From Sphingobacterium sp. T2 (lineage in GTDB: Bacteria > Bacteroidota > Bacteroidia > Sphingobacteriales > Sphingobacteriaceae), in the NCBI RefSeq assembly GCF_000814685.1, contig NZ_JXAC01000023.1:1-36571 (forward strand): a DNA stretch of 36,571 nucleotides, in the 5' to 3' direction. Every line of letters begins with the position of its first letter. The stretch's first letter is position 1. Position numbers and translations under genes: made by a program. Below, one piece after another: positions 1-31,556 of the stretch. The notes below the pieces were generated by a model, which had not been told where the DNA came from, made no database searches, and saw only the letters and a list, made by a program, of their open reading frames with translations.

Positions 1-577
1 TCACGTTCTATGTTGTCCATCCACACTAAGGCATCCATCCAGTTAGCCTCCACCGAAAGTGGATATTCCTCGAATCCAGAATTCAGATATGTTTTTTCCT
101 GGTTGTTCCGGACACTGCATAGCCATCACTCCCGGAACATTTCCTGCTAGGGCGTTGGTAATACTGGAAGTAGGGTTGGATTTAAGGTCATTGACATTTA
201 CGGAGCTTACGGCCCCTGTAGTTACCAATTTCTTTTGTGTTCCTGTTCCTGTTACGACTACTTCTTCGAGCACACTAGCTTCAGCTTCTTCTAATACTAT
301 GTTCAGCGTTTTTTGATTCACAAGAAGCACCTCTTGCCTCTTGTATCCAATAAAATTGAAGACTACTAGTTTTATATTGTTCGACCTTAATCTTGAATTG
401 TCCTTTGGCATCAGATACAGTTCCTAAGCCGGGCGCATCTTTGATAAAGATGCTGACGCCTTGCAAAGGTTTCTGGTTTTGGTCTGTCACCACACCGGTC
501 AATTCAAACTTCTCTTGCGCGTAAAGTTGAAAAGTGCAGAGCAACAGTAATATATAGAGTACAAAAGTGCTTTTCAT
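1..577 (-). CDS. SusC/RagA-family TonB-dependent outer membrane receptor, N-terminal part, frameshifted
   Basis: This is the first ~190 residues of a SusC-type receptor that imports glycan fragments across the outer membrane; the rest lies beyond the left edge. The start at 577 gives a signal peptide ending near LYAQ, then a carboxypeptidase-D-like domain (GVVTDQNQKPLQGVSI, then FNFIGYKRQEV), the TonB-box-like stretch EEVVVTGTG, and the start of the plug domain (NALAGNVPGVMAMQ, then FWIRGISTFGG). Two frame changes interrupt it: one near 375-385, after GQFKIKV, and one near 44-48, after ISTFGG, where the other frame continues as ANWMDALVWMDNIER. Both joins restore SusC-like sequence, so indels in the assembly are likelier than true decay. 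It starts 23 bases after the IPT/TIG-NHL gene on the same strand, so the two are probably one operon, with SusD expected to follow outside the window. The family is certain; the substrate is not visible. Confidence 0.88.
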
Positions 578-600: not shown

Positions 601-2047
601 TTAATCGATTTCTTCCAACGCTATTTTTCGGATACGGTGATTCATATAATCTCCAATATAGAAGGCGCCTTCTTCTTCGTTGTATGCTATTCCTGTAGGT
701 CTGTCGAAGCGGGCTTCCTGTCTGAGGTCTCCATCCACATAGCCGTAAGGGTTATTGTTGAGACTGGAGCTTCCTCGTCCAGCAAAGGTGGTTACGTTGC
801 CTTCAGGGGTTAGTATACGCACGCAGTGGTTGAGCTGGTCGGTGAAATAGAAATCATATTGATCGGGTTTCCCTGCAGCTACATAGTCCGGATTCTTGAC
901 GAATACTCCTTGATAGGGTTGGTTAAGTCGTGCGGAAGAGCCTACACCGTCCGCATAGCCGGGGCCTCTTACCTGTCCACAGACCAAATAGGGTTGGTTG
1001 AATCTTTTTTTCTCCCAATTATAATCTACACGAAGGATGTAGGATTGGTTGATAACTACTATATAAGCATAATTACCTGTAGGATGAATGATGATTTTGT
1101 ATTCCCATTGTGGGTCGTGGACAACGAAAAGTTGCTCAAAATCTTTTACTCCCAGTCCCGACTCAAAGTATTTGTTGAGGTCAAAGCGGAAAAACTGTCC
1201 TTTTTCATAGCTGTTGAAATATAGCTCACCGTTGACAGGGTGTACGGAAGCACCATTACACTGCTTATAGGTGGTTAATACCTCTCGATCTTGCCAGTTT
1301 CTGTCACGCGATAGTCTATAGGTCGCACGGTCATTTTCGCCACCACGGTCTTCGGCCACAATCATATACTTGTGATCTAGGGTGGAAGTCTACACTGCGA
1401 GGTCTATCTAGATCGGATCGTACCTTAGTCACGGTGCTGTCTTCAAAGTTGAAGAGATACAATCCATTATTAAAGTCAAACACAGCCCAAAGATGTTTGG
1501 GATTGGCTGGGTCGAATTTGAAAAAGGATTGATTCCAAAAACCGCTAGCCATCTTGTTTGGATCAGAATCTTTGAACTTACCATCTTTCCAAGGTTCATC
1601 ACCGCGTTCGTTGCGGTAACCTATAACTGTGGAAACGACCATTTTGCGTTCATATTGAAAGCGTGTTGTAGCTTTTCCTACTACCTTGTTGTCTTTAGGC
1701 CCCACACGCACCTCAATATCACCGCTGAAGGCTTTGCGTGGTACAAGACAATACAAAGCATCACCAGTGGAACTAATTACTTTTGCTTCCTTACCTCCAA
1801 TCAGCACCGTTATCATAGACGGGTCCGTTCCAAAATTTTTACCGTAGATGATTAAGCGCTGTCCCATTCCTCCCGATTTAGGTTGAAAGTCTTCGACAAC
1901 AACGGGCTGCATGGGGTCGAAAGGTACAGAGGAAGAAGTCGTGTTCTGTTCTTCCGATTTACATGACCATAGTCCTAAAATCCATATGAATAATACTATG
2001 TATTTACGAGAACTATGAGTTACATTGAACATATCATTGTTTCTCAT
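601..2047 (-). CDS. IPT/TIG-domain and NHL-repeat lipoprotein, PUL-associated, one frameshift
   Basis: A probable surface lipoprotein of ~480 residues. The N-terminus has a hydrophobic segment ending LGLWSC followed by KSEEQ; acidic residues right after the lipid-carrying Cys often mark surface export in Bacteroidota. An IPT/TIG immunoglobulin-like domain follows (VVVEDFQPKSGGMGQRLIIYG, then GDIEVRVGP), and then a beta-propeller of NHL type (HPTGNYAYIVV, FYFTDQLNHCVRILTPEG, GVTFAG-like turns, YIGDYMNHRIRKI). The frame changes near 1376 in a CCC run: removing one C joins SVDFH to LDHKYMIVAED and restores a continuous protein. Such proteins are commonly encoded beside SusC/SusD pairs, where they may bind glycan or act as an accessory to the transporter; this role is inferred. 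The gene lies immediately upstream of susC in the same direction. Confidence 0.82.
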
Positions 2048-2390
2048 ATATCTTATAATTGGTTATCACTAGTCATTCAATAGATAGGATATCGAATGTG
2101 CGTTCTGTAATGTTTACAATTGGTTACCGACAGATTATATCGGGATATAATTATTTCTTTTGCGTTACAGTTTATTTAAAATACTTATAGCTAAAATGTC
2201 TTTGTGCTAGGATTTATAATTGATTACTCAAATTTAAAGTTAATAATGAAAGAGAGATGAGAGGCAAATTTTCTCATTAGAGAGTTATTTTGTTTCAAAT
2301 ATCTTAGCAAAATAATGCTTATTTTTATATTCCACATTCGGTTAACCAAATACGATTTAGCAGGATAGTAAACCTTAAATATATTTTATT
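2048..2390. promoter_or_regulatory. Divergent intergenic region between the IPT/TIG-susC unit and the GH76 gene
   Basis: A 343-base A+T-rich stretch separates two divergent transcription units and should hold both promoters. I see no open frame of note. It contains an 18-base inverted repeat (ATTATATC, GG, GATATAAT) at 2134-2151 and three copies of an AATTGRTTA sequence at 2057-2065, 2118-2126 and 2218-2226. No exact TAnnTTTG element with a properly spaced -33 TTTG was found by eye, so promoter positions are not assigned. An HTCS response-regulator site is plausible here but not demonstrated. Confidence 0.5.
2134..2151. repeat. 18-base inverted repeat in the divergent PUL promoter region
   Basis: The arms ATTATATC and GATATAAT are perfect reverse complements around a GG centre. 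The size, symmetry and position, ~85 bases upstream of the IPT/TIG-NHL start, suit a dimeric regulator site. No protein can be assigned from the sequence alone. Confidence 0.45.
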
Positions 2391-3813
2391 ATGAAATTGA
2401 GCGTTCGTATCGCCCGCAGGTGGTTGTATGGTCTCCTTTGCTTAGCAACAATTGGATTATCTTCTTTTAATTTAAGTGATAAAAAATTAAATAGTAGTAT
2501 ATCAGTTGATGATTTCTATCGAGGCGCAAATCTTTATGATAAGGCTTGAAGCACTTTTTTGTCTCAGAACAATTTATAATGTATAGATACTATAATCCAT
2601 TTGAACAGGTACGGGGAGGAGAGAAGGCGAGTGTATGGATGTACACCTCTGCCATAGAAGCCACAAACTCTTTATTAAGGGCTTTATATAAGCATAAAGA
2701 TTCTATCTCTATTCGTAAAGTTGCTTATTATGAAGGCCTTTTAGAAAAGCTGTATGACAATGCTGCTTATTATCTGGGGACTTTCACATATACTTCTTTT
2801 ACACAGACCAAAGAATGGACGGTTTATGCGGTCAATAGGGCAGAAGAAAAAGGAAAAGCCAATGTGACGGGTATATTGAATGTATACGACGATCAAATGT
2901 GGTTGGTACGTGAACTCCTTGAGTCATATGATTTGACACAGAATAGCAAATATCTAGAGCAGGCCGAATATCTTACAGCATATGTTTTAGACGGTTGGGA
3001 TGCTACTCGCGATGAAGAAGGAAACGAACATGGAGGAATATCATGGGGGCCGGGCTATGTGACAAAACATGCATGCAGCAATGGGCCTATGATCAGTGCT
3101 CTGGTCTGGCTACATGAACTATATAAGAAAAAGAACGATAAGGATAGTCTATAGATATATCGATTCGAGAGACAGAAAGACTCGGAAAGTAAAGAAGCTT
3201 CTTAAGAGAGACTATTATTTAATGTTTGCTAAGAAAATTTATCATTGGCAGAAAGGACATTTATTGAATGACCAAGGTGTTTATTGGGATATGATGGGGC
3301 AATGTTCGCCGGATTGTCAGATTCGTTATGAAGAGGTAGGAGGACAGAGATATAGGGGGCACACACAATTGTTGAAGGCAACAGGAAAGCCATACTCTTA
3401 CAATTCAGGGACCATGCTTTCCGGAGCCGTCGATCTTTATCGGGCGACTAAGCAAAAAGATTATCTAGACGATGCTAAGGCTCTGGCAAAAGCTAGTTTC
3501 CTTTATTTTGACAAAGGCAGACAAGCAGCTCAAAGGGTACTATTCTTTTCCTACGGATGGTTTTAACAATTGGTTTCATACCGTACTGCTAAAAGGCTAT
3601 ACAGCTTTGCTGCCCTACGATCCTTCGGTATTAACATATGTGCAGGCTTTTCGGGTAAACCTCAACTATGCTTATTCTAATTATTATAAGGATGGGATAC
3701 TGCCTAGGGATTTATTAGGCGGCTGGGATAAGGATTCCCGGAAGAACAATGTAGAAGGCATGTTTATGTTTTCGTATGTAACCCAATATGCGTTGTTTGC
3801 CACTTATCTTTAG
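2391..3813 (+). CDS. Glycoside hydrolase family 76 (alpha-1,6-mannanase-like), three frameshifts
   Basis: The ATG at 2391 opens a secreted protein (basic start MKLSVRIARR, hydrophobic LLCLATIGL). Reading across three frame changes gives a typical GH76 alpha/alpha-barrel of ~470 residues. The hallmark is NVYDDQMWLVREL near 2880-2920, whose adjacent Asp pair matches the GH76 catalytic residues. Other family-like stretches are SNGPMISALVWLHELY, IYHWQKGHLLNDQGVYWDMM, YSYNSGTMLSGAVDLYRA and DGFNNWFHTVLLKGY. Breaks lie near 2545 (after NLYDKA), near 3148 (after KNDKDS) and near 3530 (after FDKGRQ). GH76 enzymes are known to cleave alpha-1,6-mannan backbones of fungal or bacterial glycans. The gene is divergent from the IPT/TIG-susC unit and converges on the HTCS gene 14 bases downstream. 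Three breaks in one gene make true pseudogenization possible, but the same kind of break occurs throughout the window. Confidence 0.82.
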
Positions 3814-3827
3814 TCAGGTATAGCCTG

Positions 3828-4591
3828 TTATGATTTTTTGTTTTGAAATTCACTAGGCGTAATACCAAACTGTTTTTGAAAGTTTCGCGAAAAATGCTGT
3901 GCCGAGCTATAACCGAGCATATTGGATATTTCGTATATCTTAAGGTTACCTTGGGCAAGTAATTCGGCGGCTCTGCGCAGTCTTGTGAGATTAATCAACT
4001 CATTGGGTGAAAGGCTGGACACTACATTTATCTTTCTGTAGAGGGTAGGACGGCTCATACAAAGGATATCAGCCATTTTATCCACGTTGAATTGGGGATT
4101 GTCTAAGTTTTGGAGTATGATTTCTTCGATTTTTTTGAGAAACTCCTTGTCATTTTGATTTTGGCCAATCTGTTGTATTTGCGAAGTAGGATTTTTAATG
4201 AAGAATTCTTTGATGCGGGTTCTGTTTTTCAGAAGACTGGCCAGCTGTGCTCTTAGAAAGGCTAATGAAAATGGCTTTTCAATATAGCGTCCGCGCCCTG
4301 TTCAAGACCTTTGATTTTGGATTCCAGTGTGTTTTTTGCTGTAAGCAGGACGATAGGTATATGTGCTAAGCTCATGTTGGATTTTACCTTTTCGCAAAAC
4401 TCAAAGCCATCCATCTCGGGCATCATCACATCGCTGATTACGAGGTCGAAGTTTTCCTGTTCCATCAAGGTGTATGCATCTACCGCACTTGTACATTTGG
4501 TGATATTATAATCTTCTGCCAAGTCGTCGGCAATAAATTCCAATAATTCGACATGGTCGTCTATCAACAAGAGATTAGCTTTCGTATTCAT
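3828..4591 (-). CDS. Receiver and AraC-type DNA-binding part of the HTCS regulator, frameshifted
   Basis: The output half of the hybrid regulator. The receiver domain starts NLLLIDDHVELLEF; the phosphoacceptor is Asp54 of this frame in VISDVMMPEMDG. The frame breaks near 4290 after EQGADA; the other frame continues YIEKPFSLAFL, restoring the conserved KPF lysine, then runs without a stop to an AraC-family double helix-turn-helix (VDKMADILCMSRPTLYRKI, then YEISNMLGYSSAQHFSRNF, then FGITPSEF). The frame opens with an ATG overlapping the last 17 bases of the sensor gene. Most HTCS proteins are a single chain, so the sensor/receiver break could be another indel; a genuine separate response regulator, translationally coupled to the kinase, is the alternative. 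It should bind promoters of this locus, such as 2048-2390 and 7740-7956. Confidence 0.85.
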
Positions 4592-7500
4592 AGATATGAG
4601 TTTGGTTTAGTGGTAGTACTAAAGTAAAGGTATTCAAATTTTTATTATCTACTTCATATTTTAACGTTCCGTGGAGTTTAAGTGCCAAGGATTGGCTTAA
4701 TGCTAAGCCCAAGCCGCTTCCCGGAATGCTTTTGCTTCGTTGCAATCTGCTGAAGGGTTCAAAAATATAGGCTCTATCATCTGGAGGAATGACCTTTCCG
4801 TCGTTTTTTATCGTGAGAATCAATGACTCTCGCTTGTCATCTTGCTGCAGTACTACTTCAATATACGCATGTGAATATTTCAGAGCGTTGTTCAATAGAT
4901 TTGTGCAAATTTTTTCATAAGCTTCTACATCTATATAGCATTCCAGATGTTGAGGAATGGAAGAGCGCAGGGTTTTATTTTGAGATTCCAACGTTACCTT
5001 AAAATCGGTTATTATATCTTGGGTAAGCAGACCTATATTTTTTTTCTCAAATTTGAATTTGAATGCCTTATTGTCTACCTTTCTGAAGTCCAACAATTGG
5101 TTGCTCAATTCTATTAGCCTCTCTGTGTTGTTTTGAATTGTTTGGAGTAATTTGTCCGTCACGGGATTAGCAGGAATTTTCAGGATTAACTTCTCCAAAG
5201 GTGCTTTTATCAGGGTTAACGGCGTTCTGATTTCATGTACCACATCGGTATAGAAGTCCATTTTAGCTTGATAGAGTTGCTGTTCACGAAGGTTTTGGAT
5301 TTTCAGCAGGTGTTGCTGGTTTCTTTGTTTGACTTTCTCTTTGAAGTGATAAGCTATAAATGCTATCAGCCCGATGAACAGAAGAGCATATATGATAAAG
5401 GCAGGTATACTAGCCCAGAAAGGAGGTAAAATTTTTATTTTCAGTGTTCGTATAGAAGAGATGGGGTTGCCGTTAGGGTCTTCTGCTTTCACGACAAACT
5501 CATAAGTTCCGGGCAATACTTTGGTAAAATGTGCTCTGTTGGCTTGCGTCACTGTCACCCAATCCGTATTGACGCCTACAAGTTTGTAGCTATAACGTAT
5601 GGACTTAGGAGCATCATACTGTAAGGCCGTAAAATCCAAACTAAAGGATGATTGATCGTATTTCAATACCACTTCATCCGTAAAGAGAATGGATTGTGTG
5701 AGAACAGTGTTTTCTGTTCTGAGGTCTATTTCTTTGTTATTTACCAATAGTTTGGTAATGAAAATCGGCGTGTTTGGGTTGTAATTGATTTTGTTAAGCT
5801 TTTCGGGAGAGAAGCGTATTAACCCGTTTATGGTGCCAAAATAAAAGGTACCTTCTCCATCATCGAATGCTGAATTATAGTTGAACTGTATAGCAGGTAG
5901 CCCGGATTCTAAGTTAAACAGGCGATGATGTTGTGTTGAAGGGTTATAGCGTATTAATCCTTTGGAAGTACTAATCCAAAGGTTGCCTTGTCGATCCTCT
6001 AGGATAGCCAGTACAATTTTGCTGGGAAGATGGAGGCTCACCGCTTTCAGCTGATGCTTCCCACTTTTATCTTTGATGATTCTTGCCACTCCTCCCTCTG
6101 TGGCTACCCATATCGTGCCTTTACGATCTTGAAATAGGCAGTTAATCTTATTGTTAGGTAAAGAATTATCTTGCTGTGGGTCATGCACAAAATGTATGTG
6201 CCCCGGACTGTCGGGATTATACATGTAAATACCGTCTCTCCAGGTGCCAAGCCATATGTTTCCTTCCCAATCTTCCGTAATAGTGGTATAGGAATTATTC
6301 AAGGGAACGTTGGTAATCTCTTGGAAGGTGTTGGATTTATGATCGAACTTATAGTGTCCTTGCGTAGAAGCAACCAACACTTCTCCCTTACGGTTTGTGT
6401 AGAAATAGTATAAAAAGTTGCTTTTCAGGCCGGAATTGTTCTTACCATCGGGTTCGATGTGGGTGACAACCCTTTTCTTATTGGTATCGAAGATGTCCAT
6501 GCCATATACAAAGGTGCCTAGCAATATTTTTTCGTCCAGTGGAAGTAACCCATGAATATTATTGTTGGTGAGAGCAGCATTGTGTTCGCTATAGTTTTCA
6601 ATTTCTCCTGTCGAGGGATTTAATTTGCTAAGCCCTCCGTTTTCAGTTCCTAGCCATATATTGCCTTGCTTGTCTTTCGCTATGATACGTACTACAGTAC
6701 CTAAAAGCTGCCCCCCTTGTTTGGAAGACATGAATTTCTCGATGAGGTTGTTGTTTTCATTATAATAATTGACGCCACCAAAGTAGGTTGTTAGCCAGAT
6801 GCCGCCATCCCTGTCTTTAACGATACTGTAGAGCGCGTTGTCCGAAATTCCCCAAGGGTTGTCTTCCGACTTGCGGATATTGGTAATTTTTTTTGTATCC
6901 GTATGATAAATAAACAATCCCGATTCGGTGGCAAACCAGTATTCGTGGTCGTTCTTTATAAGGATATCACGCACATATAAGAATTGATTCAGCTGCTGTA
7001 ATCCTAAAAACCAATCGACTTTTTTGTCATATAAGGTTAATCGGGCAACCCCGGCCTTTGCCGTGCCGATGATAAGGTTACCGTCCTTATCTTCCGTTAT
7101 TTTTTGGATGCTGTACCAATCTGAGTTGCCGTAAAGTTTTGAAAAGTCAATGATTTCGGTATAGCAACCTTTATCGCTGACGGCGAAAATCTGTCCACTT
7201 ATGGTTCCTAAAAATATTTGTCCATTTTTCCCGCAGTGAAGAGCCGTGGCCGAAATACGGTTATGGATTCTTTCGGTAGCGTTTTTTTGTGGTATATGAT
7301 GATGAACTATACCATCAGCAATAAACCAAATAGTATTATGGTTATCAATGACGATGACAGGCACATCCGCATTTGCAAATTCTTTGTTTAGCAACCGGAA
7401 AGATTCTTTGAATGGATTGTAGATGTATATACCTTGGTCCGTGCCTATCCAGATATTTTTATGCTCATCTTCAACCAAAGAAATGATGTTGTTGGCTATG

Positions 7501-7739
7501 GTGTTTCTTACCTCATTGAGAATGTCAAAATGTTTGAAATTGTTGCCATCGAAACGGTCCAGACCATCCTTTGTTCCAAACCATAGAAAACCAAAGCTGT
7601 CTTGCATACTGCAGATAACCGTATTGTTGGATAGCCCGTCGTTTATCTGATAACGGTTGAAATAATAGGGCTGGGCTTTACCGTGCGGTAAACATCCCAA
7701 GAATATGACCCAACAAAACCATATCTTTAGTCTGTACAT
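4575..7739 (-). CDS. HTCS sensor: periplasmic two-propeller sensor with histidine kinase
   Basis: A 1054-residue sensor kinase. A signal peptide ends near HGKAQ. About 700 residues of repeated two-component-regulator propeller motifs follow (for example NTVICSMQDSFGFLWFGT, GGIWLTTYFGGVNYY, GNIWLGTENGGLSKL), forming the two beta-propellers that bind oligosaccharide in the periplasm. A Y_Y_Y domain (PGTYEFVVKAEDPNGN) and one membrane segment (FWASIPAFIIYALLFIGLIA) come next. The cytoplasmic kinase has the phosphorylated His at about residue 835 (DVVHEIRTPLTLIKAP), the N-box (CTNLLNNALKYS) and the ATP lid glycines (GSGLGLALSQ). HTCS proteins are known to activate adjacent polysaccharide loci on binding a specific breakdown product. 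It is divergent from the GH127-GH2-glutaminase operon, its likely target. The receiver/AraC part lies in a different frame directly downstream. Confidence 0.93.
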   Translation of the reverse strand: MYRLKIWFCWVIFLGCLPHGKAQPYYFNRYQINDGLSNNTVICSMQDSFGFLWFGTKDGLDRFDGNNFKHFDILNEVRNTIANNIISLVEDEHKNIWIGTDQGIYIYNPFKESFRLLNKEFANADVPVIVIDNHNTIWFIADGIVHHHIPQKNATERIHNRISATALHCGKNGQIFLGTISGQIFAVSDKGCYTEIIDFSKLYGNSDWYSIQKITEDKDGNLIIGTAKAGVARLTLYDKKVDWFLGLQQLNQFLYVRDILIKNDHEYWFATESGLFIYHTDTKKITNIRKSEDNPWGISDNALYSIVKDRDGGIWLTTYFGGVNYYNENNNLIEKFMSSKQGGQLLGTVVRIIAKDKQGNIWLGTENGGLSKLNPSTGEIENYSEHNAALTNNNIHGLLPLDEKILLGTFVYGMDIFDTNKKRVVTHIEPDGKNNSGLKSNFLYYFYTNRKGEVLVASTQGHYKFDHKSNTFQEITNVPLNNSYTTITEDWEGNIWLGTWRDGIYMYNPDSPGHIHFVHDPQQDNSLPNNKINCLFQDRKGTIWVATEGGVARIIKDKSGKHQLKAVSLHLPSKIVLAILEDRQGNLWISTSKGLIRYNPSTQHHRLFNLESGLPAIQFNYNSAFDDGEGTFYFGTINGLIRFSPEKLNKINYNPNTPIFITKLLVNNKEIDLRTENTVLTQSILFTDEVVLKYDQSSFSLDFTALQYDAPKSIRYSYKLVGVNTDWVTVTQANRAHFTKVLPGTYEFVVKAEDPNGNPISSIRTLKIKILPPFWASIPAFIIYALLFIGLIAFIAYHFKEKVKQRNQQHLLKIQNLREQQLYQAKMDFYTDVVHEIRTPLTLIKAPLEKLILKIPANPVTDKLLQTIQNNTERLIELSNQLLDFRKVDNKAFKFKFEKKNIGLLTQDIITDFKVTLESQNKTLRSSIPQHLECYIDVEAYEKICTNLLNNALKYSHAYIEVVLQQDDKRESLILTIKNDGKVIPPDDRAYIFEPFSRLQRSKSIPGSGLGLALSQSLALKLHGTLKYEVDNKNLNTFTLVLPLNQTHIYEYES

Positions 7740-7956
7740 CTATCTGGCTGTTGATTTATAATTGGTGATAAACTTTTTCTTCGTGATGTCTATTATTTCA
7801 AAAATAGATAATCCTTTTAATTAAAAAAGGAATTGCAAGGATAAAAACGTATTGATACAAAAAGATATTTTTTTGAGATAAAATGCTATTTTTCCTTGCT
7901 AATGGCTGATTATCTTTGATAAACAATAGAGATACTAATTATAAACCTTTCTATCC
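7740..7956. promoter_or_regulatory. Divergent promoter region between the HTCS gene and the GH127 operon
   Basis: This 217-base A+T-rich gap must hold promoters for both directions. On the plus strand TATCTTTG at 7911-7918 matches the Bacteroidota -7 element TAnnTTTG and lies about 40 bases before the GH127 start; the -33 element is weak (T-rich near 7887-7891). An imperfect inverted repeat (AATCCTTTT and AAAAGGAATT) lies around 7810-7833 and could be a regulator site. On the minus side a CACCAATT leader sequence sits 21 bases before the HTCS ATG. Confidence 0.5.
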
Positions 7957-10002
7957 ATGCTAAGACTTACATTTTTAAGTGTATTTATGGTCCTTGTTTG
8001 TGCTGTAAGCCGGGGTCAGCAGGAAAGTGCTGAGTCGGTTTATGCGTTGCCTATTACCCCTACAAATGTCAATTATGTCAACAACAAGGCTCCATTACGT
8101 AAAAATGTTTTGATTAAACTTCCGGTAGGAAGTATACGTCCGGCAGGATGGTTAGGAAGATACCTAGAATTACAGCGGGATGGCTTGACAGGAAAGCTTG
8201 GAGAGATTAGTGCTTGGCTTAATAAGAAAAATAACGCTTGGCTCAGCAAGGACGGCACGGGCGATTACGGCTGGGAGGAAGTACCTTATTGGTTAAAAGG
8301 ATATGCCCATTTAGGCTATATCCTGAGAGATGAGCAGATACTAAAGGAGGCGCAAATATGGATAGAAGGTGCTTTGAACAGCCAGCGACCAGATGGTTAT
8401 TTCGGACCTCTAATTTTAAAACATAACAAGCCGGACCTCTGGGGCAACATGATCATGCTATGGTGCCTGCAATCGTATTATGAATATAGCGGAGACCAAC
8501 GTGTGATAACGCTGATGACCAGATATTTTAAATGGCAGCATAGTCTTCCGGATAGTTTTTTCTTGAAAGATTATTGGGAAAATAGTCGAGGAGGAGACAA
8601 TCTTCTTTCGGTATATTGGCTTTACAACAGAACGGAAGGTAATGAGTGGCTGCTAGAACTGGCAGATAAGATTCATCGCAATACGGCCAATTGGAGAAAG
8701 CATAACGATCTTCCCAATTGGCATAATGTCAACATAGCTCAAGGCTTTCGTGAGCCGGCGACTTATTTTCTGAAAAGTCATGCCCAAGAAGACCTGTTGG
8801 CGACCTATCGTAACTTTAATTTTGTCAGGGAGATTTTCGGACAGGTGCCGGGAGGTATGTTTGGCGCCGATGAGAATGCCCGTCCGGGATACACGGATCC
8901 ACGTCAAGGCGTAGAAACCTGTGGAATGGTAGAACAGATGGCTTCCGACGAAATTTTGTTGGGAATAACGGGAGATCCGTTTTGGGCAGACCATGCGGAG
9001 GAGGTGGCCTTCAACACCTATCCTGCTGCGGTAACAGCAGACTTTAAAGCCCTAAGGTATATCACTAGTCCTAATATGACTATCAGCGACAGCCGCAATC
9101 ACGCTCCAGGTATAGAAAATAGTGGCCCTTTCCTGATGATGAATCCTTTCAGTTCGAGGTGTTGCCAACATAATCACAGTCAAGGATGGCCCTATTATGC
9201 CGAACATCTTTATATGGCGACGAATGATAATGGCATCGCAGTGGTGCTGTATGCGGCTTCGACAGTTAATGTCAAAGTAGCTCGACAAGAGGAAATTCAG
9301 ATAAAGCAAATATCCAACTATCCTTTTGAGGAAAGCATCCGCTTTGAAGTGATAACCAAAGGAAAGAGAGTAAATTTTCCTCTTTACCTTCGCATCCCCC
9401 AATGGGCTCAAAATCCTCAGGTGTCGGTCAATGGTAAAGTCTATAGTGTGAGAGAGGGAGCCAAATATTTTAAGGTTGATCGTGCATGGCAGGATGGCGA
9501 TAAAGTGATAGTTCATTTGCCAATGCATATCACCTTCAACAGGTGGGAAAAGAATAAAAAATCGGTAAGTATAAGCCGTGGCCCTTTAACCTATTCACTC
9601 AAGATCAAAGAAGAGTATGTACCCAAAGACAGTAAATCTTCGGCCATAGGGGACTCGCGATGGCAGGAAGATGCCGACGCCAGTAAATGGCCTTCCTACG
9701 AAATCCTACCCGGCAGCGAATGGAACTTCGGTATTGTGGAAAGTGAGCTGCAAAATGTCCATAAGCTCAAAGTCGTAACACGCGAATGGCCAAAAGATTC
9801 CTTTCCTTTTGAGGCGGATGCTGTACCTATATCCATCTTTGTGAAGGCCAAGCAACTAAAGGAATGGGGTATAGACCGTTATGGTCTTACGGCAGAACTG
9901 CCGGAAAGTCCTATCGTTACAGAAACCAAAGAACAACTTATAGAACTCATACCTATGGGAGCAGCACGCCTCAGAGTATCTGCATTCCCGGTAGTCAACT
10001 AA
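7957..10002 (+). CDS. GH127-like (DUF1680) beta-L-arabinofuranosidase-family enzyme, secreted
   Basis: An intact 681-residue protein with an N-terminal signal peptide (ending near SRGQ). The catalytic alpha/alpha-barrel spans roughly residues 45-430 and beta-sandwich domains follow. Family signatures include GWEEVPYWLKGYAHLGYIL and, near residues 320-322 and 402-403, ETC and CC. These match Glu338/Cys340 and Cys417/Cys418 of the B. longum enzyme HypBA1, where they bind zinc and supply the Cys nucleophile; Glu306 could be the acid/base, but I align that only loosely. The family removes beta-L-arabinofuranose or related residues from plant glycans or glycoproteins; members close to this type may act on other sugars, so the substrate is open. 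It is the first gene of a three-gene plus-strand operon (25 bases to the GH2 gene) driven from 7740-7956. Confidence 0.85.
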   Translation: MLRLTFLSVFMVLVCAVSRGQQESAESVYALPITPTNVNYVNNKAPLRKNVLIKLPVGSIRPAGWLGRYLELQRDGLTGKLGEISAWLNKKNNAWLSKDGTGDYGWEEVPYWLKGYAHLGYILRDEQILKEAQIWIEGALNSQRPDGYFGPLILKHNKPDLWGNMIMLWCLQSYYEYSGDQRVITLMTRYFKWQHSLPDSFFLKDYWENSRGGDNLLSVYWLYNRTEGNEWLLELADKIHRNTANWRKHNDLPNWHNVNIAQGFREPATYFLKSHAQEDLLATYRNFNFVREIFGQVPGGMFGADENARPGYTDPRQGVETCGMVEQMASDEILLGITGDPFWADHAEEVAFNTYPAAVTADFKALRYITSPNMTISDSRNHAPGIENSGPFLMMNPFSSRCCQHNHSQGWPYYAEHLYMATNDNGIAVVLYAASTVNVKVARQEEIQIKQISNYPFEESIRFEVITKGKRVNFPLYLRIPQWAQNPQVSVNGKVYSVREGAKYFKVDRAWQDGDKVIVHLPMHITFNRWEKNKKSVSISRGPLTYSLKIKEEYVPKDSKSSAIGDSRWQEDADASKWPSYEILPGSEWNFGIVESELQNVHKLKVVTREWPKDSFPFEADAVPISIFVKAKQLKEWGIDRYGLTAELPESPIVTETKEQLIELIPMGAARLRVSAFPVVN

Positions 10003-10026
10003 CATTATTACAATTAAAGTATTCAG

Positions 10027-11858
10027 ATGAAAAAGAAGATTTTATTAGCATGTTTATTGCTGGCTTCGCAGTTCTCTTTTGCCCAGGATTGGAAGCCTGC
10101 AGGATCCAAAATTATGACCTCTTGGGGGGAAAAGGTGAACCCCGAAAATCCTCATCCGGAATATCCAAGACCTATGTTGGTCAGAGAAAACAATTGGCAA
10201 AACCTTAATGGATTGTGGAATTACGCCATCACTGATGCCGACAGAACAGCATTTCCGGAACAGTGGGAGGGTAAAATCCTAGTGCCTTTTGCCGTAGAAT
10301 CGGCCTGTCAGGGGTAGGTAAAATTGTAGGGAAAGACAAAGCTTTATGGTACCACCGTACAATAACCTTGAACAAGAATGTCAATAAAGATAATATACTC
10401 TTACATTTTGGTGCTGTAGACTGGCGCTGTGACGTCTATGTCAACGGCAAGCATGTAGGAACGCATGAGGGCGGCTTTGATCCTTTTACCATGGATATTA
10501 CTTCCTTTGTGAAGAAGGGTGCTAAACAGGATATAATATTAAAAGTATGGGATCCAACCGACGATGGTCCTCAACCTCGTGGTAAGCAGATAAAAAATCC
10601 GCATGGTATATGGTATACCCCAGTTACTGGAATATGGCAAACGGTATGGGTCGAGAGTGTGCCTAAATCCTATATTGTTAAGACCAAGCATACTCCGCAA
10701 TTTGATGCAAAGAAACTGACTGTAGAGTCTTTCGTCACCAATGAAAATGCAGGTGACCAGATAAAGGTAGTGGTGCTCGACGGACAACAAGAGATTACGC
10801 AAAAGACAGGTACTGTCAATACCGCTTTGGAAATCGATGTGCCTAATCTTCAGGCTTGGTCTCCTTCTAATCCTAAGCTGTATGATTTGGAAATACTACT
10901 GCTTCGAAAAGGTAAGGTTATAGACAAAGCCAAAAGCTATTTCGCGATGCGCAAAATTTCGATGCAGAAAGATGCAAACGGCATTCAACGTATGATGCTT
11001 AACAATGAATTTGTCTTTCAGTTTGGACCTTTAGACCAAGGATGGTGGCCGGATGGTTTGCATACAGCACCATCGGACGAGGCATTGAAATTCGATGTTA
11101 TCAAAACTAAAGAAATGGGATTCAACATGATCCGCAAGCATATAAAGGTGGAACCTGCACGCTGGTATCGTCATTGCGACAGCGTAGGAATATTGGTATG
11201 GCAGGATATGCCAAGTGGAGATTTAGGAGGTAATGCTTGGGATATGCAGCCGGGAAAAATTTCTGGAAATAACAGAGATAAGCAACGTTCGCCGGAATCT
11301 GAAAGCTACTATCGTAAGGAATGGAAAAATATTATGGAGTCCTTACACAATTATCCGTCAATTGTCGTGTGGGTGCCTTTCAATGAAGCTTGGGGACAAT
11401 TCAAAACCAAAGAGATTACGGAGTGGACCATGAACTTCGATACATCACGTCTGGTAAACAGTGCCAGCGGCGGAAACTTTATGTATACAGGACATATCCT
11501 TGACATTCACAATTATCCTGATGCGGCTATGCCTGACCCACACGTCTTTGGCGATAAGCAGATCTTGGCTCTTGGAGAGTTTGGTGGATTAGGACTGCCT
11601 GTGGAAGGTCATACATGGCAACAAAAAGACAATTGGGGTTACCAGACCTTCAAAAATAAAGAAGAATTATTTAATCGCTATAAACAGCTGATCGATAAGC
11701 TGGATAAATTAATTCCTATGGGGCTTTCTGCGGCCGTGTATACGCAGACTACGGACGTAGAGGTAGAAACCAATGGCTTGATGACATACGACAGAAAGGT
11801 AGTTAAAATTCCTGAAAGTGAGCTATTTAAAGTGCATAGTAAATTATACAAACATTAA
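10027..11858 (+). CDS. Glycoside hydrolase family 2 enzyme (beta-galactosidase/glucuronidase-like), one frameshift
   Basis: A secreted GH2 enzyme of about 610 residues; the signal peptide ends at FSFAQ. A sugar-binding jelly-roll domain (NLNGLWNYAI, then LLHFGAVDWRCDVYVNG) is followed by an immunoglobulin-like domain and a TIM barrel. The acid/base Glu is in VPFNEAWGQF (codon 11385-11387) and the likely nucleophile in LALGEFGG (codon 11577-11579), both as expected for GH2. The frame breaks near 10311: a missing C in a CC run turns ESALSGVGK into ESACQG and stop; the next frame continues to 11858. The chain is short for GH2, lacking the extra C-terminal domains of large beta-galactosidases. 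It lies 25 bases after the GH127-like gene and 33 bases before the glutaminase-like gene, so the three are probably co-transcribed. Linkage and sugar specificity cannot be read from the sequence. Confidence 0.86.
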
Positions 11859-11890
11859 AACCTAAACCGGTCTCAAGATTAAATGATATC

Positions 11891-14368
11891 ATGAATTTTA
11901 AATTGAAAATTACACTTGTAGCTATCTTTTTGTGTGCTTTTTTAGGGGTATCAGCACAAAGGCAGGCAAACAGAAATGAGCTTCGTGCTCCTGCCTTTCC
12001 GCTGATAACCATTGATCCTAATACCAGTGCTTGGTCCTATAGTGATAACCTATACGATGATGCAGTGCGTCATTGGACAGGTAAGCCTTTTCCGCTCTTG
12101 GGAGTACTGAAAGTCGACGGCGTAGCATATAGATTTATGGGAAAGGAAGATATTGAGCTGGAAGCCATCGCCAAAATGGCGGAACAGGCTGGGTGGTCCG
12201 CAAAATTTACGATGCAAGAACCTTCCGCCGACTGGATGAATGTTGACTTTTCGGATGAAGGATGGAAAAGAGGAGAAGCTCCTTTCGGAACAAAGGATAA
12301 AGAGCCTGCAGCCAAAACAGATTGGCGGGAACCAAAAATATGGGTACGTAGGGAGTTTTACCTGAATGAGGATTTGCAGGGGAAACCTGTCTACGTGGAG
12401 TTTACCCACGATGATGATGCCATTATCTATGTAAATGGAATAGAAGTGGCCAACACCGGACAAGCGACAGGAAAAAATAGAAGGGTAAAACTGCCAGAAG
12501 CTGCAGTAAAAACTCTTAAAAAGGGCAAAAATGTGCTAGCCGGATACTGTTATAACCGCGTAGCTAATGGTTATTTCGATTTCGGACTATATACAGAAAA
12601 GAAGAATAGTGTGATATTTCCTCAGGCAGCCAAACAGTTGTCAGTAAATGTGCAGGCCACACAAACGCACTACGAGTTCGATTGTGGCCCCGTACGCCTT
12701 GAGGTTTCTTTTATAGCACCTCTATTGCTGGAAAATCTGGATTTGGTGTCTCGTCCTGTAAACTATTTGGCCTACACAGTGAAATCCTTAGACGGGAAAA
12801 AACACCAGGTACAGCTGTATGTGGAAGCCTCTACTAACTGGGCGCTAAACCATCCTCTGCAAGAGTCCACGTTGGCACAATATAAGTCTGGAGGATTGGC
12901 ATATGTTAAGACTGGTAGCAAAAGTCAGGAAATCCTCGGCAAGAAGGGGGATGATCTCCGTATAGATTGGGGATATTTTTATATGGCTGCCGATGCTTCC
13001 AAGACAAGAACCGCCACAGGAGATGGACTAACCTTACGCTCGGCATTTATGAATGACAACAAACTGGACTCTTCAGATAAAGGAAGACAGCTGGTCTTAA
13101 CGCAAAACTTTGCGGTGAGTAAAAGCTATTCCGACAAGATCCTGTTGGGATATGATGATATATATTCTATTCAGTACTTCGGACAGAATTTAAGGCCCTA
13201 TTGGAATAGAAATGAAGATAGCTCTATAGAGAAACAATTCGAAGCTGCCCATAAAGAATTTGCAACATTAAAGACCGCTTGTGAAAAGTTTGATGTGGAG
13301 TTGTGGAACACGGCCATGCGTGTAGGCGGCAAAGAATATGCATCGTTGACAGCGCTCGCCTACCGTCAGTCTATTGCTGCCCATAAACTTGTAAAAGCTC
13401 CTAATGGTGATTTGCTGTGGCTTTCCAAAGAGAATGACAGCAATGGCTCTATAGGTACTGTGGATGTGACATATCCTTCAGCTCCTCTATATTTATATTA
13501 TAATCCTGAGCTGGCTAAAGGCTTACTCAACCACATATTTTACTATAGTGAAAGCAAGCGGTGGAAAAAGCCTTTTGCGGCGCATGATGTCGGCACTTAT
13601 CCGCTTGCCAATGGACAGACCTATGGGGGTGATATGCCTGTGGAAGAGTCCGGAAATATGGTTATCCTGACCTATGCGATAGCGCGCATGGAGCAGAATG
13701 CCGAATATGCCAGAAAACATTGGGAAGTATTGACCACCTGGACAGACTATCTTGTCGAACATGGACAGGATCCCGACAACCAGCTGTGTACGGATGACTT
13801 CGCAGGCCATTTTGCCCATAATGCCAACCTTTCTGTAAAAGCTATTGTAGCCATAGCTGCTTACGGTCATCTTGCCAAAATGTTGGGAATGAATGATGTG
13901 GCGAAAAAATATATAGCTAAAGCCAAAGAGATGGCTTCAATATGGAAAGTGATGGCGGCAGATGGCGACCACTATAAGCTTACCTTCGATAAGTCCGGGA
14001 CCTGGAGCCAAAAGTATAATCTGGTCTGGGATAAGATTTTAGGGATGCATATTTTTGATGAAGACATCATTCAGACGGAAATCCAATATTATCTTACCAA
14101 ACAAAATAAGTATGGTCTGCCTTTGGATAACAGACGTACTTACACGAAGACAGATTGGATTATGTGGACCGCTACCATGGCTGAAGACATAGATACTTTC
14201 CGGAAGTTTATCACTCCAGTATATAACTTTATGCATGAGACCACAGACCGTCTGCCCATGTCGGATTGGATTTATACGGATAAGCCAGTTCGTGCCGGCT
14301 TTAAAGCCCGTTCGGTAGTGGGGGGCTATTTCATCAAAATGCTAGAAGAAAAAATCAATAAACAATAA
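11891..14368 (+). CDS. Glutaminase A-like protein (DUF4964/DUF5127/DUF4965/DUF1793 architecture), secreted
   Basis: An intact 825-residue secreted protein (signal peptide ending LGVSAQ). The order of parts looks like DUF4964 (residues ~25-85, APAFPLITIDPNTSAWS), a jelly-roll insert (~100-235, EFTHDDDAIIYVNGIEV) resembling a GH2-type galactose-binding domain, DUF5127 (~250-480), DUF4965 (~480-650, HDVGTYPLANGQ) and an alpha-barrel DUF1793-like C-terminus (CTDDFAGHFAHNANLSVKA, SWKVMAADGDHYKLTF-like). Databases call this family glutaminase A after a fungal enzyme. In Bacteroidota the genes occur in polysaccharide loci, so a glycosidase role on the alpha-barrel is at least as likely here. It is the last gene of the GH127-GH2 operon and is followed by a strong terminator at 14392-14425. 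Confidence 0.8.
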   Translation: MNFKLKITLVAIFLCAFLGVSAQRQANRNELRAPAFPLITIDPNTSAWSYSDNLYDDAVRHWTGKPFPLLGVLKVDGVAYRFMGKEDIELEAIAKMAEQAGWSAKFTMQEPSADWMNVDFSDEGWKRGEAPFGTKDKEPAAKTDWREPKIWVRREFYLNEDLQGKPVYVEFTHDDDAIIYVNGIEVANTGQATGKNRRVKLPEAAVKTLKKGKNVLAGYCYNRVANGYFDFGLYTEKKNSVIFPQAAKQLSVNVQATQTHYEFDCGPVRLEVSFIAPLLLENLDLVSRPVNYLAYTVKSLDGKKHQVQLYVEASTNWALNHPLQESTLAQYKSGGLAYVKTGSKSQEILGKKGDDLRIDWGYFYMAADASKTRTATGDGLTLRSAFMNDNKLDSSDKGRQLVLTQNFAVSKSYSDKILLGYDDIYSIQYFGQNLRPYWNRNEDSSIEKQFEAAHKEFATLKTACEKFDVELWNTAMRVGGKEYASLTALAYRQSIAAHKLVKAPNGDLLWLSKENDSNGSIGTVDVTYPSAPLYLYYNPELAKGLLNHIFYYSESKRWKKPFAAHDVGTYPLANGQTYGGDMPVEESGNMVILTYAIARMEQNAEYARKHWEVLTTWTDYLVEHGQDPDNQLCTDDFAGHFAHNANLSVKAIVAIAAYGHLAKMLGMNDVAKKYIAKAKEMASIWKVMAADGDHYKLTFDKSGTWSQKYNLVWDKILGMHIFDEDIIQTEIQYYLTKQNKYGLPLDNRRTYTKTDWIMWTATMAEDIDTFRKFITPVYNFMHETTDRLPMSDWIYTDKPVRAGFKARSVVGGYFIKMLEEKINKQ

Positions 14369-14486: not shown

Positions 14487-15995
14487 ATGGATATTCATGT
14501 TCGATTGCTTTCGAAAAAGGATTATGCTGATTTGCGGAAATCCATGTCGAAGGCATATCATGGTATTGGAGGGATATGGTCTAAGGAAAATATTGTAGAC
14601 CTTATAGATATCTTTCCTGAAGGTCAGTTTTGTGTGGAGGCCAATGGCCATGTCGTAGCTTGTGCGCTCTCCATAATAATAGATTCCAAAAAAACGTCTA
14701 TTGAAGATTCTTATTTGGAAATCACGGATGATGGAAAGTTTACCAAGCACGACTACAACGGTGATACGCTGTACGGCATAGAGGTGTTCGTACATCCGGA
14801 TTATCGTTCCCTACGACTCGGTAGAAGATTGTACGATAGCCGCAAGGAGCTTTGTGAGCAGATGAACCTCAAAGGCATAGTTGCCGGAGGACGTATTCCA
14901 AACTACTATAATTATGCGGATGAGATGAGTCCGCGCGTATATATCGAAAAGGTAAAACGTAAGGAAATATATGACCCTACACTTACCTTTCAGCTGTCTA
15001 ATGATTTCCATGTGAAGAAAATCCTTAAGAATTATCTTCCCGGAGATTCGGAATCCAAAGAATTTGCCACCCTCCTGGAGTGGAACAACATTTATTACGA
15101 CCCTAATGCCAGGGCTAGTTCAGCTACGAAACAAACCATTCGTTTGGGGTTAGTGCAGTGGCAGATGCGTCTTTTCGAAGATTTGGAAGATTTCTACGAC
15201 CAAGTGGAGTTCTTTGTGGATGCGGTGAGTGATTATGGTGCCGACTTTATTATGTTTCCGGAATTTTTTAATACTCCGCTGATGCGCCCTTATAACGACC
15301 TTCCGGAGAGGATGGCCATGGAAAAGCTTGCCGGCTTCACTAAAGAAATTTCGGAGCGTATTTCTAAGTTTGCCGTCTCTTATAACGTAAATATCATTGC
15401 AGGCTCTATGCCCCTTTACGAACGCGGAAAACTATATAATGCCAGCTACTTGTGTCATCGTAATGGGCATGTAGACCAGTACCGTAAGATACATATTACG
15501 CCAAATGAACTCAAATATTATGGAATGGTGGGAGGTAACGAAGTCAATGTGTTCGATACTGACTGTGGCAAGATCGGTTTATTGATTTGTTATGATGTAG
15601 AATTTCCGGAGTTAGGACGTATCTTGGCAGAACAGGGGATGAAAATACTTTTTGTTCCTTATATGACCGATACGCAGAATGGATATATGCGTGTACGGCA
15701 TTGTGCACAGGCCAGAGCCATTGAAAATGAATGCTATGTGGCTATTGCCGGTTCTGTGGGCAACCTGCCGCATGTCAACAATATGGATATTCAATATTCA
15801 CAGTCAGCGGTGTTTACGCCTTCGGATTTTGCCTTTCCGAATAATGCGGTGAAGGCGGAGGCTACCCCTAATGCCGAAATGGTGTTGATCGCTGACGTAG
15901 ATTTATATGCTTTGCGCGACCTGCATGAATATGGGACGGTACAAAATCTCAAAGACCGCCGTAAGGATTTATATTCTGTAAAACTGTTGAAATAG
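14487..15995 (+). CDS. GNAT acetyltransferase-nitrilase fusion (carbon-nitrogen hydrolase)
   Basis: A 502-residue cytoplasmic two-domain protein. Residues ~1-200 are a GNAT domain (YGIEVFVHPDYRSLRLGRRL carries the acetyl-CoA loop) and ~217-500 a nitrilase-superfamily domain. The Glu-Lys-Cys triad is visible as Glu259 (FPEFF), Lys334 (YRKIHITP) and Cys368 (LLICYDVEFPE). The fusion is known in Bacteroidota and some other bacteria; its substrate is not established, and amide hydrolysis coupled to N-acylation is only an inference. I chose the ATG at 14487 because it begins the GNAT fold; an upstream in-frame start at 14409 would overlap the terminator hairpin and add a low-quality 26-residue extension. 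The gene stands alone and ends at the bidirectional terminator at 15999-16017, facing asnA. Confidence 0.9.
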   Translation: MDIHVRLLSKKDYADLRKSMSKAYHGIGGIWSKENIVDLIDIFPEGQFCVEANGHVVACALSIIIDSKKTSIEDSYLEITDDGKFTKHDYNGDTLYGIEVFVHPDYRSLRLGRRLYDSRKELCEQMNLKGIVAGGRIPNYYNYADEMSPRVYIEKVKRKEIYDPTLTFQLSNDFHVKKILKNYLPGDSESKEFATLLEWNNIYYDPNARASSATKQTIRLGLVQWQMRLFEDLEDFYDQVEFFVDAVSDYGADFIMFPEFFNTPLMRPYNDLPERMAMEKLAGFTKEISERISKFAVSYNVNIIAGSMPLYERGKLYNASYLCHRNGHVDQYRKIHITPNELKYYGMVGGNEVNVFDTDCGKIGLLICYDVEFPELGRILAEQGMKILFVPYMTDTQNGYMRVRHCAQARAIENECYVAIAGSVGNLPHVNNMDIQYSQSAVFTPSDFAFPNNAVKAEATPNAEMVLIADVDLYALRDLHEYGTVQNLKDRRKDLYSVKLLK

Positions 15996-21273: not shown

Positions 21274-22186
21274 TTAAAATAAATTAGGGTAATCACTAAT
21301 AATTCCGTCTACGTTCAATGCTTTTAGCTTCTCTATTTCTTCTTTAGTATTTACGGTCCAAGGAAGAACTTTTATACCCATGGCATGGGCATCTTTTACG
21401 AATTGCTCGGTTACGATTTTGTAATTAGGGCTGATAATGAAAGGTTTGAAACCTAACTCCTCTACCAACTCTTTAACTGTCTTGGTGTTTTTGGCGTCGA
21501 TAAGATAGGATGTACGAACTGTTGGATATTGTTTGTTTATATATTGGATAGTACGTTTATCAAAAGACTGTATAACTGTTCTCTTGTCTATTGCCTTTAT
21601 CCAAAATGATTTTTAATATCAGGTCCGAAAATTCTTTTGGCTCAGGATGTGCCACATTGTCCTTCTTCTCATTACTTTTAGTCTCGATATTGTAAAACAT
21701 CTTCTTGCCTTTGGAAGCAGCATATTTTTCTGCTTCGTCAATAAGATCTGATAGAAGAGCAATCTTTGTCGAAATTTTTCGCTGTTGAGGGAAATCCACA
21801 TTGCCTTTTAACCCCAAGTCGAACTGCTGAAGTTGCTCGTAGGTGTAATTATAGATCAATCCTTTATTGTCTTTTCCCTTTAATTCTGATCCATCACTGT
21901 AGGTCACGAATTTAGGATTGAGGAAATCATCGTGGTAAACTACTACTTTTTTGTCCTTTGTGATGTTGGTCGAATCCATCTCCAAGGTGGTGACGATAGG
22001 GAAGTCTATAGACATTTTCATACCGCCGATGGAGTTTTCAGGATATAAGCCTCTACCACCACGGTGAGCTTCGTAAGAAAATTTAGGGAAGTCCACATAA
22101 GTATTACGCTCTTTTTTTACTGCACACGATGTGGAGGCAAGTATCAAAGAAACAATTGCTAATGATATTTTTAAAGGTTTACGCAT
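21274..22186 (-). CDS. glpQ: Glycerophosphodiester phosphodiesterase, lipoprotein (GlpQ-type), one frameshift
   Basis: Hydrolyses glycerophosphodiesters to G3P and an alcohol outside the cytoplasm. The start at 22186 (MRKPLKISLAIVS) gives a lipoprotein signal peptide ending ASTSC; an upstream ATG at 22219 is possible but spoils the peptide. The TIM-barrel GDPD signatures are present: EAHRGGRGLYPENS with the catalytic His-Arg, LEMDSTNITKDKKVVVYHDD (the metal-binding Glu-x-Asp and second catalytic His), FYNIETKS and, at the end, LPWTVNTKEEI and VDGIISDYP. The frame breaks near 21598 after KIILDK; the next frame reads AIDKRTVIQSFDKRTIQY and goes on to 21274. Its product feeds glpT, which starts 14 bases downstream. 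Confidence 0.9.
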
Positions 22187-22220
22187 AGATACAGATTTAA
22201 GTGTTCTAATATACATCAAT

Positions 22221-22262
22221 AAAAAAGAATAAACATACGATGAAAGTATGTTTATTCTTTTT
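22221..22262. terminator. Terminator between the metallophosphoesterase gene and glpQ
   Basis: A 12-base stem (GAATAAACATAC paired with GTATGTTTATTC) with a 7-base loop, an A6 run on the left and a T5 run on the right. It suggests glpQ-glpT has its own promoter or is transcribed through incomplete termination. Confidence 0.78.
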
Positions 22263-22264
22263 CG

Positions 22265-24256: not shown

Positions 24257-24331
24257 AATTGGTGTTAGTTAGGGTTAAAAATAGCTATCAGCCAGCTTGC
24301 GCTGACTGATAGCTTGATATAGGTTGCAAGT

Positions 24332-24964: not shown

Positions 24965-24990
24965 TTATTTTTGTGCGAAAGTGCAAAGCC

Positions 24991-25018
24991 AATATTAGCA
25001 TAATGTTATGCTAATATT
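24991..25018. repeat. 28-base inverted repeat downstream of glpF
   Basis: Perfect 13-base arms (AATATTAGCATAA and TTATGCTAATATT) flank a 2-base centre. It lies between the glpF stop and the truncated gene. The stem is A+T-rich and no T run follows on the minus strand, so it makes a poor terminator and could equally be an operator. Confidence 0.6.
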
Positions 25019-25088
25019 AAGCTATAATATTTGGTTATCCTTTTGGTTTTAGTTATCTGTTTGTTTTAAATGTCTTTTATTCCCTCCT

Positions 25089-25823: not shown

Positions 25824-25844
25824 AATTTCGTGGTTTTAAAATTA

Positions 25845-27344: not shown

Positions 27345-27386
27345 ATCGTAATTTAGTTTATTGGTTATCTTTAATGTAATTGAACA

Positions 27387-31477: not shown

Positions 31478-31556
31478 ATTTTTTTTACGTAGATATAATG
31501 AAGTATTTAACAGCCAGATGCAATAGATCTGGCTGTCTTTATCATATAGTAGATTA

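Follow-up and report, generated by a model that had tools for sequence, protein, structure and literature searches.

A conserved Sphingobacterium locus combining GH76 with GH127-like, GH2 and glutaminase A-like proteins: a candidate system for furanose-bearing alpha-mannan

Introduction

Which glycan does a bacterium degrade with a presumed alpha-mannanase, two enzymes of furanosidase-like families and a "glutaminase", and do these genes belong to one locus at all? We address both questions for a stretch of 36,571 nucleotides (the window) from Sphingobacterium sp. T2 (assembly GCF_000814685.1), which is the entire contig NZ_JXAC01000023.1 (C146) in a draft assembly of 326 contigs and 3.04 Mb. 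Its left part carries genes of a polysaccharide utilization locus (PUL). We find that the locus is one unit, and on balance we favor reading it as one PUL for alpha-mannan with furanose-ended side chains, most likely a fungal-type galactomannan carrying D-galactofuranose (Galf).

Gene content and order of the locus

We put 26 open reading frames (ORFs) of the window to Pfam, and this bore out the enzyme set listed in a first-pass annotation made from the letters alone: glycoside hydrolase (GH) family 76, a GH127-like protein (GH127L), GH2 and a glutaminase A-like protein (GtaA). The divergent gene arrangement is likewise as described there. The features are listed below; amino acid (aa) ranges refer to the query proteins.

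46-553, minus strand: SusC/TonB-dependent transporter, N-terminal part (tblastn with Sphingobacterium composti SusC, aa 9-69 and aa 58-177, in two frames)
601-2047, minus strand: IPT/TIG-NHL protein, putative surface lipoprotein; one gene with a frameshift near 1384 (Pfam TIG at 1331-2047 and NHL at 601-1365, both on the minus strand)
2391-3813, plus strand: GH76, presumed endo-alpha-1,6-mannanase, in three frames, starting at ATG
3831-4591, minus strand: response regulator with AraC-type helix-turn-helix (HTH), aligned part, in two frames (Response_reg by Pfam; tblastn)
4575-7739, minus strand: sensor histidine kinase (Reg_prop propeller, Y_Y_Y, HisKA and HATPase_c by Pfam)
7740-7956, no strand: intergenic stretch from which the kinase gene and the GH operon diverge, a presumed promoter region by its position
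7957-10002, plus strand: GH127L, a distant DUF1680 (GH127/GH146-like) protein (PF07944 and PF20736, the GH127 catalytic and middle domains)
10027-11858, plus strand: GH2 of the furanosidase group (GH2_18-like), ATG at 10027, one frameshift (Pfam match 10368-11858)
11891-14368, plus strand: GtaA-like protein of DUF4964-DUF5127-six-hairpin architecture (Pfam DUF4964, DUF5127 and GtaA_6_Hairpin, PF16335, formerly DUF4965)
14487-15995, plus strand: GNAT-nitrilase protein (Pfam; tblastn, aa 1-502)

The order DUF4973-SusD-SusC-TIGNHL / GH76 / response regulator-kinase / GH127L-GH2-GtaA is unbroken in S. composti (G163) and in two further genomes (G190 and G053). In S. alimentarium (G169, L103), whose locus lies at a contig start, GH76 to GtaA are present as far as the contig reaches. 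Because this gene order is conserved in related genomes, the locus is one unit and not two that abut, and the conserved order led us to reject abutting loci, an option left open by the first-pass annotation, as the leading explanation. The nearest named relatives of GH127L are from Sphingobacterium, and other members of the genus carry variants with an aldose epimerase, GH43 and a second SusCD pair. In other genomes some or all of the partners are again found in the same locus as GH92, GH76 or GH125; GtaA, GH76 and GH127L are consecutive in L137 and L148.

A related possibility is that an ordinary alpha-mannan unit (SusCD, TIG-NHL and GH76) lies beside a GH127L-GH2-GtaA operon and that the two share the regulator by position only. 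The trio, or part of it, does occur without GH76 or GH92 in many loci, beside other SusCD types. We nevertheless judge this unlikely: the whole block keeps its order in Sphingobacterium, in Bacteroidales SusC of the window type is found together with GH92 and GtaA/GH127L, and GtaA, GH76 and GH127L stand side by side in the two loci just named.

The SusD that one would seek to the left of the window was located on an overlapping contig, C26 (L095). Window positions 1-316 overlap the end of C26 at 96% identity with 8 gaps by blastn, the source of this overlap; no exact match of the first 20-60 window bases was found in C26. The remainder of SusC is on that contig, as are a BT_3044-like protein and SusD, which is 77% identical to its S. 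composti counterpart. Beyond these it carries DUF3467 and M42 peptidase genes (79% and 94% identity), the same border as in the S. composti locus. The locus thus has the adjacent SusC and SusD genes of a PUL, with SusC starting in the window and continuing on C26, and glycan-degrading enzymes and a sensor-regulator are co-located with them. On the other side, the GNAT-nitrilase gene comes after GtaA in four Sphingobacterium genomes and is probably a conserved flanking gene outside the locus.

The first-pass annotation had proposed a hybrid two-component system, a class in which the sensor kinase, the receiver and an AraC HTH form a single polypeptide; the regulator departs from this. It consists of a 1,054-aa kinase and a separate response regulator, whose genes slightly overlap in the window and encode separate intact proteins in S. 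composti. The response regulator orthologue there is an unbroken 263-aa protein with Response_reg and AraC-type HTH (HTH_18) domains, and the kinase orthologue is 63% identical.

Frameshifts and flanking sequence

Comparison with S. composti proteins shows frameshifts in five of the eight locus genes that the window contains (SusC, TIG-NHL, GH76 twice, the response regulator and GH2); the kinase, GH127L and GtaA are unbroken. The S. composti TIG-NHL orthologue, for example, is an unbroken protein of 483 aa (65-77% identity). Frameshifts also break 4/7 flanking genes compared (AsnA, an aminotransferase, a major facilitator superfamily (MFS) transporter and a GDPD protein), for a total of ten in about 22 kb (window 46-22186), within and beyond the locus. 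Since flanking genes are broken about as often as locus genes and the ends of C26 and C146 conflict, the frameshifts look like sequence errors in an error-rich draft, and we rejected gene decay on these two grounds.

Further right, window 21277-28952 encodes a GDPD phosphodiesterase, a calcineurin-like phosphoesterase, a MIP channel, an FGGY kinase and an FAD-dependent oxidoreductase with a glycerophosphate-oxidase C-terminal domain, a glycerol/phospholipid cluster that seems ordinary. Two minus-strand ORFs (592 and 358 aa) overlap at 29918-32633; neither had a Pfam match at 1e-5, and they may be a single frameshifted gene.

Enzyme assignments

The GH76 assignment rests on PF03663, with 34.1 bits for the window fragment (2546-3154) and 73.5 bits for the unbroken S. 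composti protein, against a curated cut-off of 25.9; by tblastn, aa 54-469 of that protein aligned across three frames. B. thetaiotaomicron GH76 structures (BT2949) were among the fold-comparison matches. The window protein contains the Asp-Asp motif YDDQMW. A catalytic role of an Asp pair is evident from the title of structure 6shm (inactive D136A and D137A variant), and the YDDQMW pair presumably occupies the same position. Neither GH92 nor GH125 was found in the 26 window ORFs or in the three C26 ORFs scanned (of six in all; the rest are SusC pieces and SusD). The absence of these families noted in the first-pass annotation therefore stands for the window ORFs scanned; genome-wide it fails for GH92, which is present on four other contigs. 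Yeast-mannan PULs of B. thetaiotaomicron follow the same logic of GH76 with SusCD and are built around GH92 and GH125. Neither family is among the scanned window ORFs, which instead encode GtaA, GH127L and a GH2_18-like enzyme.

For GH2, we compared the unbroken S. composti protein with Protein Data Bank (PDB) sequences. The best matches were 7sf2 (698 bits), whose molecule name states no activity, 9j6n, named beta-D-galactofuranosidase 2 (451 bits), and 7xyr (300 bits). With the 496-aa window fragment, 7sf2, 9j6n/9j6m and 7xyr were again far ahead, the fifth-ranked sequence scoring 74 bits. The NE acid/base and GEFGG motifs are present. PMC12243196 places 9J6M in GH2_18 and 7XYR in GH2_19 and describes alpha-L-arabinofuranose (Araf) and beta-D-Galf activities as specific to that group; a subfamily for 7sf2 was not found in that paper. 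By its closest relatives, the window GH2 appears to belong to the furanose-specific GH2_18/19 group. Its nearest named relative is the Streptomyces sp. JHA19 beta-D-galactofuranosidase (9j6m/9j6n), although the Sphingobacterium protein is closer to 7sf2. A GH2 enzyme of that strain (ORF1110) is reported to be Galf-specific and to free galactose from Aspergillus fumigatus galactomannan (PMC4560423).

We modeled GH127L with AlphaFold2 (mean predicted local distance difference test (pLDDT) score 84.2). Its fold matched GH127 and GH146 structures with Z scores of 23.5-31.1, the next best being 14.6. It shares the fold and the E..C plus CC zinc-thiolate residues with HypBA1 and Ara127N (GH127) and with BT0349 and Bll3HypBA1 (GH146), but structural identity is only 14-21% to GH127 and 16-17% to GH146. 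Residues E320, C322, C402 and C403 are invariant in 34/34 sequences and aligned with the Cys3-Glu zinc site, the ligand set of clan GH-P (GH127/GH146) as given in PMC10850190; they are presumed to be the zinc and nucleophile residues. D305 and E306, also invariant, are candidates for the acid/base that do not come from the alignment. GH127L falls far short of the NCBIfam model for aceric acid hydrolase (NF049879), scoring 97 bits against a curated cut-off of 950.

The AlphaFold2 model of GtaA (pLDDT 79.7, predicted template modeling score 0.79) resembles GH116 (Z 29.5, root-mean-square deviation (rmsd) 3.9 over 617 aa), the exo-beta-D-arabinanase ExoMA2 (Z 27.0) and GH52 (Z 26.9, rmsd 3.5 over 594 aa). 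This GH116/GH52-like overall fold was seen by fold comparison only; when the GtaA profile was run against PDB sequences, no GH116 or GH52 chain was among the matches listed. E514 and D635/D636 are at least 90% conserved, and the profile alignment to GH116 is poor (probability 9%). By their conservation and by known GH116 motifs, E514 is a candidate nucleophile and D635/D636 are candidates for the acid/base. Judging from the fold of the model, GtaA is a probable retaining beta-glycosidase. That the glutaminase-like protein may be a glycosidase, as the first-pass annotation suggested, had already been proposed with assay data in 2022 (PMC9668830). There, a glycosidase probe labels a fungal member of the family, and a homologue from Streptomyces has weak beta-galactosidase activity with glutaminase not detected. 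The proteins described there (DUF4964-5127-4965-1793) have DUF4964, DUF5127 and the six-hairpin domain in common with the window GtaA, and HHpred in that paper likewise pointed to GH116 and GH52; unlike them, the window GtaA is a bacterial PUL member.

Neighborhoods of related loci

We surveyed GH127L loci across Bacteroidota, taking the best 80 of 571 confirmed in a genome collection, among them the S. composti locus (L100) that supplied our reference proteins. The partners found were GH2 (40 loci), GtaA (39), GH43 (37) and aldose 1-epimerase (21). Mannan enzymes occurred in 25 loci (GH92 in 15, GH76 in 9 and GH125 in 5). Counted by genus-level groups (n=47), GH2 occurred in 19, GtaA in 22, GH43 in 18 and mannan enzymes in 15. 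Thirteen of 22 GH92/GH76 proteins from outside Sphingobacterium were put to Pfam and 13/13 held; Pfam identified GH125 in L121, and clustering added four other loci. Mannan enzymes and GtaA tend to occur together (18/23 vs 16/46, Fisher p 0.0009). SusC of the window type (at least 50% identity) was present in 6/69 non-Sphingobacterium loci, five of the six with GH92 or GH76, and a galactokinase was present in L118 and L131.

A second comparison covered 33 of 34 GH127L loci at 55-77% identity, with the window excluded and one locus cut by a contig end (G148) left out. Of these close loci 23 have GH2, 21 GtaA, 11 GH43 (one cluster) and 17 SusC. As a control we used 13 of 53 more distant GH127L places; the 11 paralogue loci among them (35-42%) include two with GH2 and none with GtaA. 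The stretches compared span 10-32 kb, and those of eight close loci exceed 20 kb, a comparison that is not strictly matched. Across the family sample, a GH127-like match at E <= 1e-50 was found in 72/201 genomes, paralogues included, and 99/201 genomes each have one to three GtaA matches (E <= 1e-80). With so few matches per genome, we would seldom expect the genes to lie within about 20 kb of each other by chance.

Three further observations concern these neighborhoods. A recurrent protein of about 360-390 aa (GH10x; for example L047:6714-7889, minus strand) with weak GH10 and mannanase-like matches occurs in 16/80 loci and could be a further enzyme of the set. Another protein cluster is present in 6/80 loci (L123, L131, L137, L167, L172 and L173), and its L137 member has BNR repeats. 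A Sphingobacteriaceae metagenome-assembled genome from lichen (L169) carries a GH127L-GtaA pair.

Target glycan

GH76 together with GH92/GH125 means alpha-mannan, and the GH2 group means a furanose in the target glycan. Because these two signals come with aldose epimerase genes and, in L118 and L131, with a galactokinase gene, Galf on mannan is the simplest fit. The mixed glycan that the first-pass annotation considered is therefore supported, in the form of alpha-mannan plus furanose. Its suggestion of a plant arabinose/galactose glycan is a less favored possibility, since the nearest named GH2 relative is a beta-D-galactofuranosidase and mannan enzymes recur. Suitable glycans have been described: Aspergillus galactomannan carries beta-Galf (PMC4560423), both alpha-Galf(1->6)Man and alpha-Galf(1->2)Man are found in fungi (PMC5583699), and alpha-galactofuranose is listed as a decoration of fungal alpha-mannan (PMC10154615).

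From gene content and order, family and fold assignments, motifs and co-occurrence, we infer the following substrates, localization and order of steps. The kinase/AraC pair would sense a released oligosaccharide. GH76 would cleave the alpha-1,6-mannan backbone, and SusC/SusD with the TIG-NHL and BT_3044-like proteins would capture and import the fragments. Three enzymes would work in the periplasm: GH2 would take off beta-D-Galf, GtaA another beta-linked sugar, and GH127L a furanose of 1,2-cis configuration (alpha-D-Galf corresponds in stereochemistry to beta-L-Araf). The mannose may finally fall to GH92 enzymes, whose genes lie elsewhere in the genome.

Several results weigh against Galf-bearing mannan as the target. 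The majority of surveyed loci (55/80) have no mannan enzyme, and 21/80 have none of GH2, GtaA, GH43, GH92, GH76 or GH125, although 9 of these 21 comprise less than 10 kb of sequence. The association of mannan enzymes with GH2 falls short of significance (12/23 vs 17/46, p 0.30), and the loci are not phylogenetically independent, the association tests being uncorrected for relatedness. Neither of the two most distant (class C) control loci has GtaA or GH2, but one has GH76. Among 126 unassigned neighbors (at least 280 aa, within 5 kb), the families listed, which are the best 25 of 84 for one half of the set and the best 25 of 92 for the other, include GH53 (one member), alpha-rhamnosidase (two), alpha-fucosidase (three), GH20 (two) and chondroitinase B (two). 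GH43 of the relatives is nearest to endo-1,5-alpha-L-arabinanases. GH2_18/19 also contains alpha-L-arabinofuranosidases, with specificity determinants described as unknown (PMC12243196), and GH2 and GH43 of a Salegentibacter alpha-mannan PUL are called closest to alpha-L-arabinofuranosidases (PMC9213526). Two loci types add to this list. In L064 (families read directly) and in L065 and L067 (assigned by clustering), a GtaA-GH127L pair has GH97, GH31, an AraR-like NUDIX regulator and an MFS transporter as neighbors, a setting that may indicate arabinose or some other sugar. Sphingobacterium L194 (G193) has GH76, response regulator, kinase, epimerase, GH2, GtaA, GH43, TIG-NHL and SusCD without GH127L, representing either natural loss or a pre-gain state.

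Much of this evidence would suit the main rival, an arabinofuranose-bearing glycan on which GH2 would act as an alpha-L-arabinofuranosidase, GH127L as a beta-L-arabinofuranosidase and GH76 on a mannose part or another linkage. We regard it as a possible but distinctly less probable target. Solved GH127/GH146 relatives are mostly named beta-L-arabinofuranosidases, and the alpha-L-Araf enzymes within GH2_18/19, the endo-arabinanase-like GH43 proteins, the AraR-like regulator beside some GH127L genes, and the single GH53 and two alpha-rhamnosidases among the listed neighbor families all agree with it. Set against it are the recurrence of GH92, GH76 or GH125 in 25/80 loci, with Pfam-checked genes in Bacteroidales, and the beta-D-galactofuranosidase as nearest named relative of GH2. 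GH51 was absent from the listed families of the 126 neighbors, and in a look for an arabinan signature there no listed family had more than three members.

Alpha-1,6-mannan, D-Galf and D-Araf also co-occur in the actinobacterial cell wall, and a lipomannan/arabinogalactan target containing mannose, D-Galf and D-Araf would accord with the likeness of the GtaA fold to ExoMA2. Gut Bacteroidetes are reported to degrade mycobacterial galactan (PMC10115798). The same source names GH172 and GH183 as D-arabinan families and GH182 as a galactofuranosidase family; GH172 and GH183 were not in the annotations seen, in which no search was aimed at them. We think a cell-wall target very improbable.

Discussion

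The locus fits into a known class of systems with an apparently new combination of enzymes. PULs are known, and furanosidase-like GH2 and GH43 genes in an alpha-mannan PUL have already been reported: the alpha-mannan-inducible locus of the Bacteroidota member Salegentibacter sp. (PMC9213526) has GH76 with arabinofuranosidase-related GH2 and GH43. That PUL differs in having six GH92 genes and GH125, and "GH127" and "glutaminase" are absent as terms from the main text of the paper. Among the open-licence literature matches listed, we found no Bacteroidota locus assigned to a galactofuranose-bearing mannan, and no GH127-like/GtaA/GH2 set with such an assignment.

Beta-L-Araf and alpha-D-Galf have the same ring stereochemistry, and for this reason we venture a guess about GH127L itself. 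It might be an alpha-D-galactofuranosidase with a zinc-bound cysteine nucleophile, a new activity, which together with the GH2 beta-D-galactofuranosidase and the GtaA beta-glycosidase would form a Bacteroidota-wide toolkit for Galf-capped fungal mannan. We offer this as speculation, well short of the confidence we place in a furanose-bearing alpha-mannan as the target.

If a Galf-bearing alpha-mannan is indeed the substrate, the locus would connect one glycan with two little-understood groups, the "glutaminase A" family and this remote DUF1680 clade, and would allow the function of GtaA proteins to be tested directly. Its enzymes would be candidate tools to strip galactofuranose from fungal galactomannan, a diagnostic antigen. 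Should the toolkit exist as well, the large GtaA family would gain a natural substrate class.

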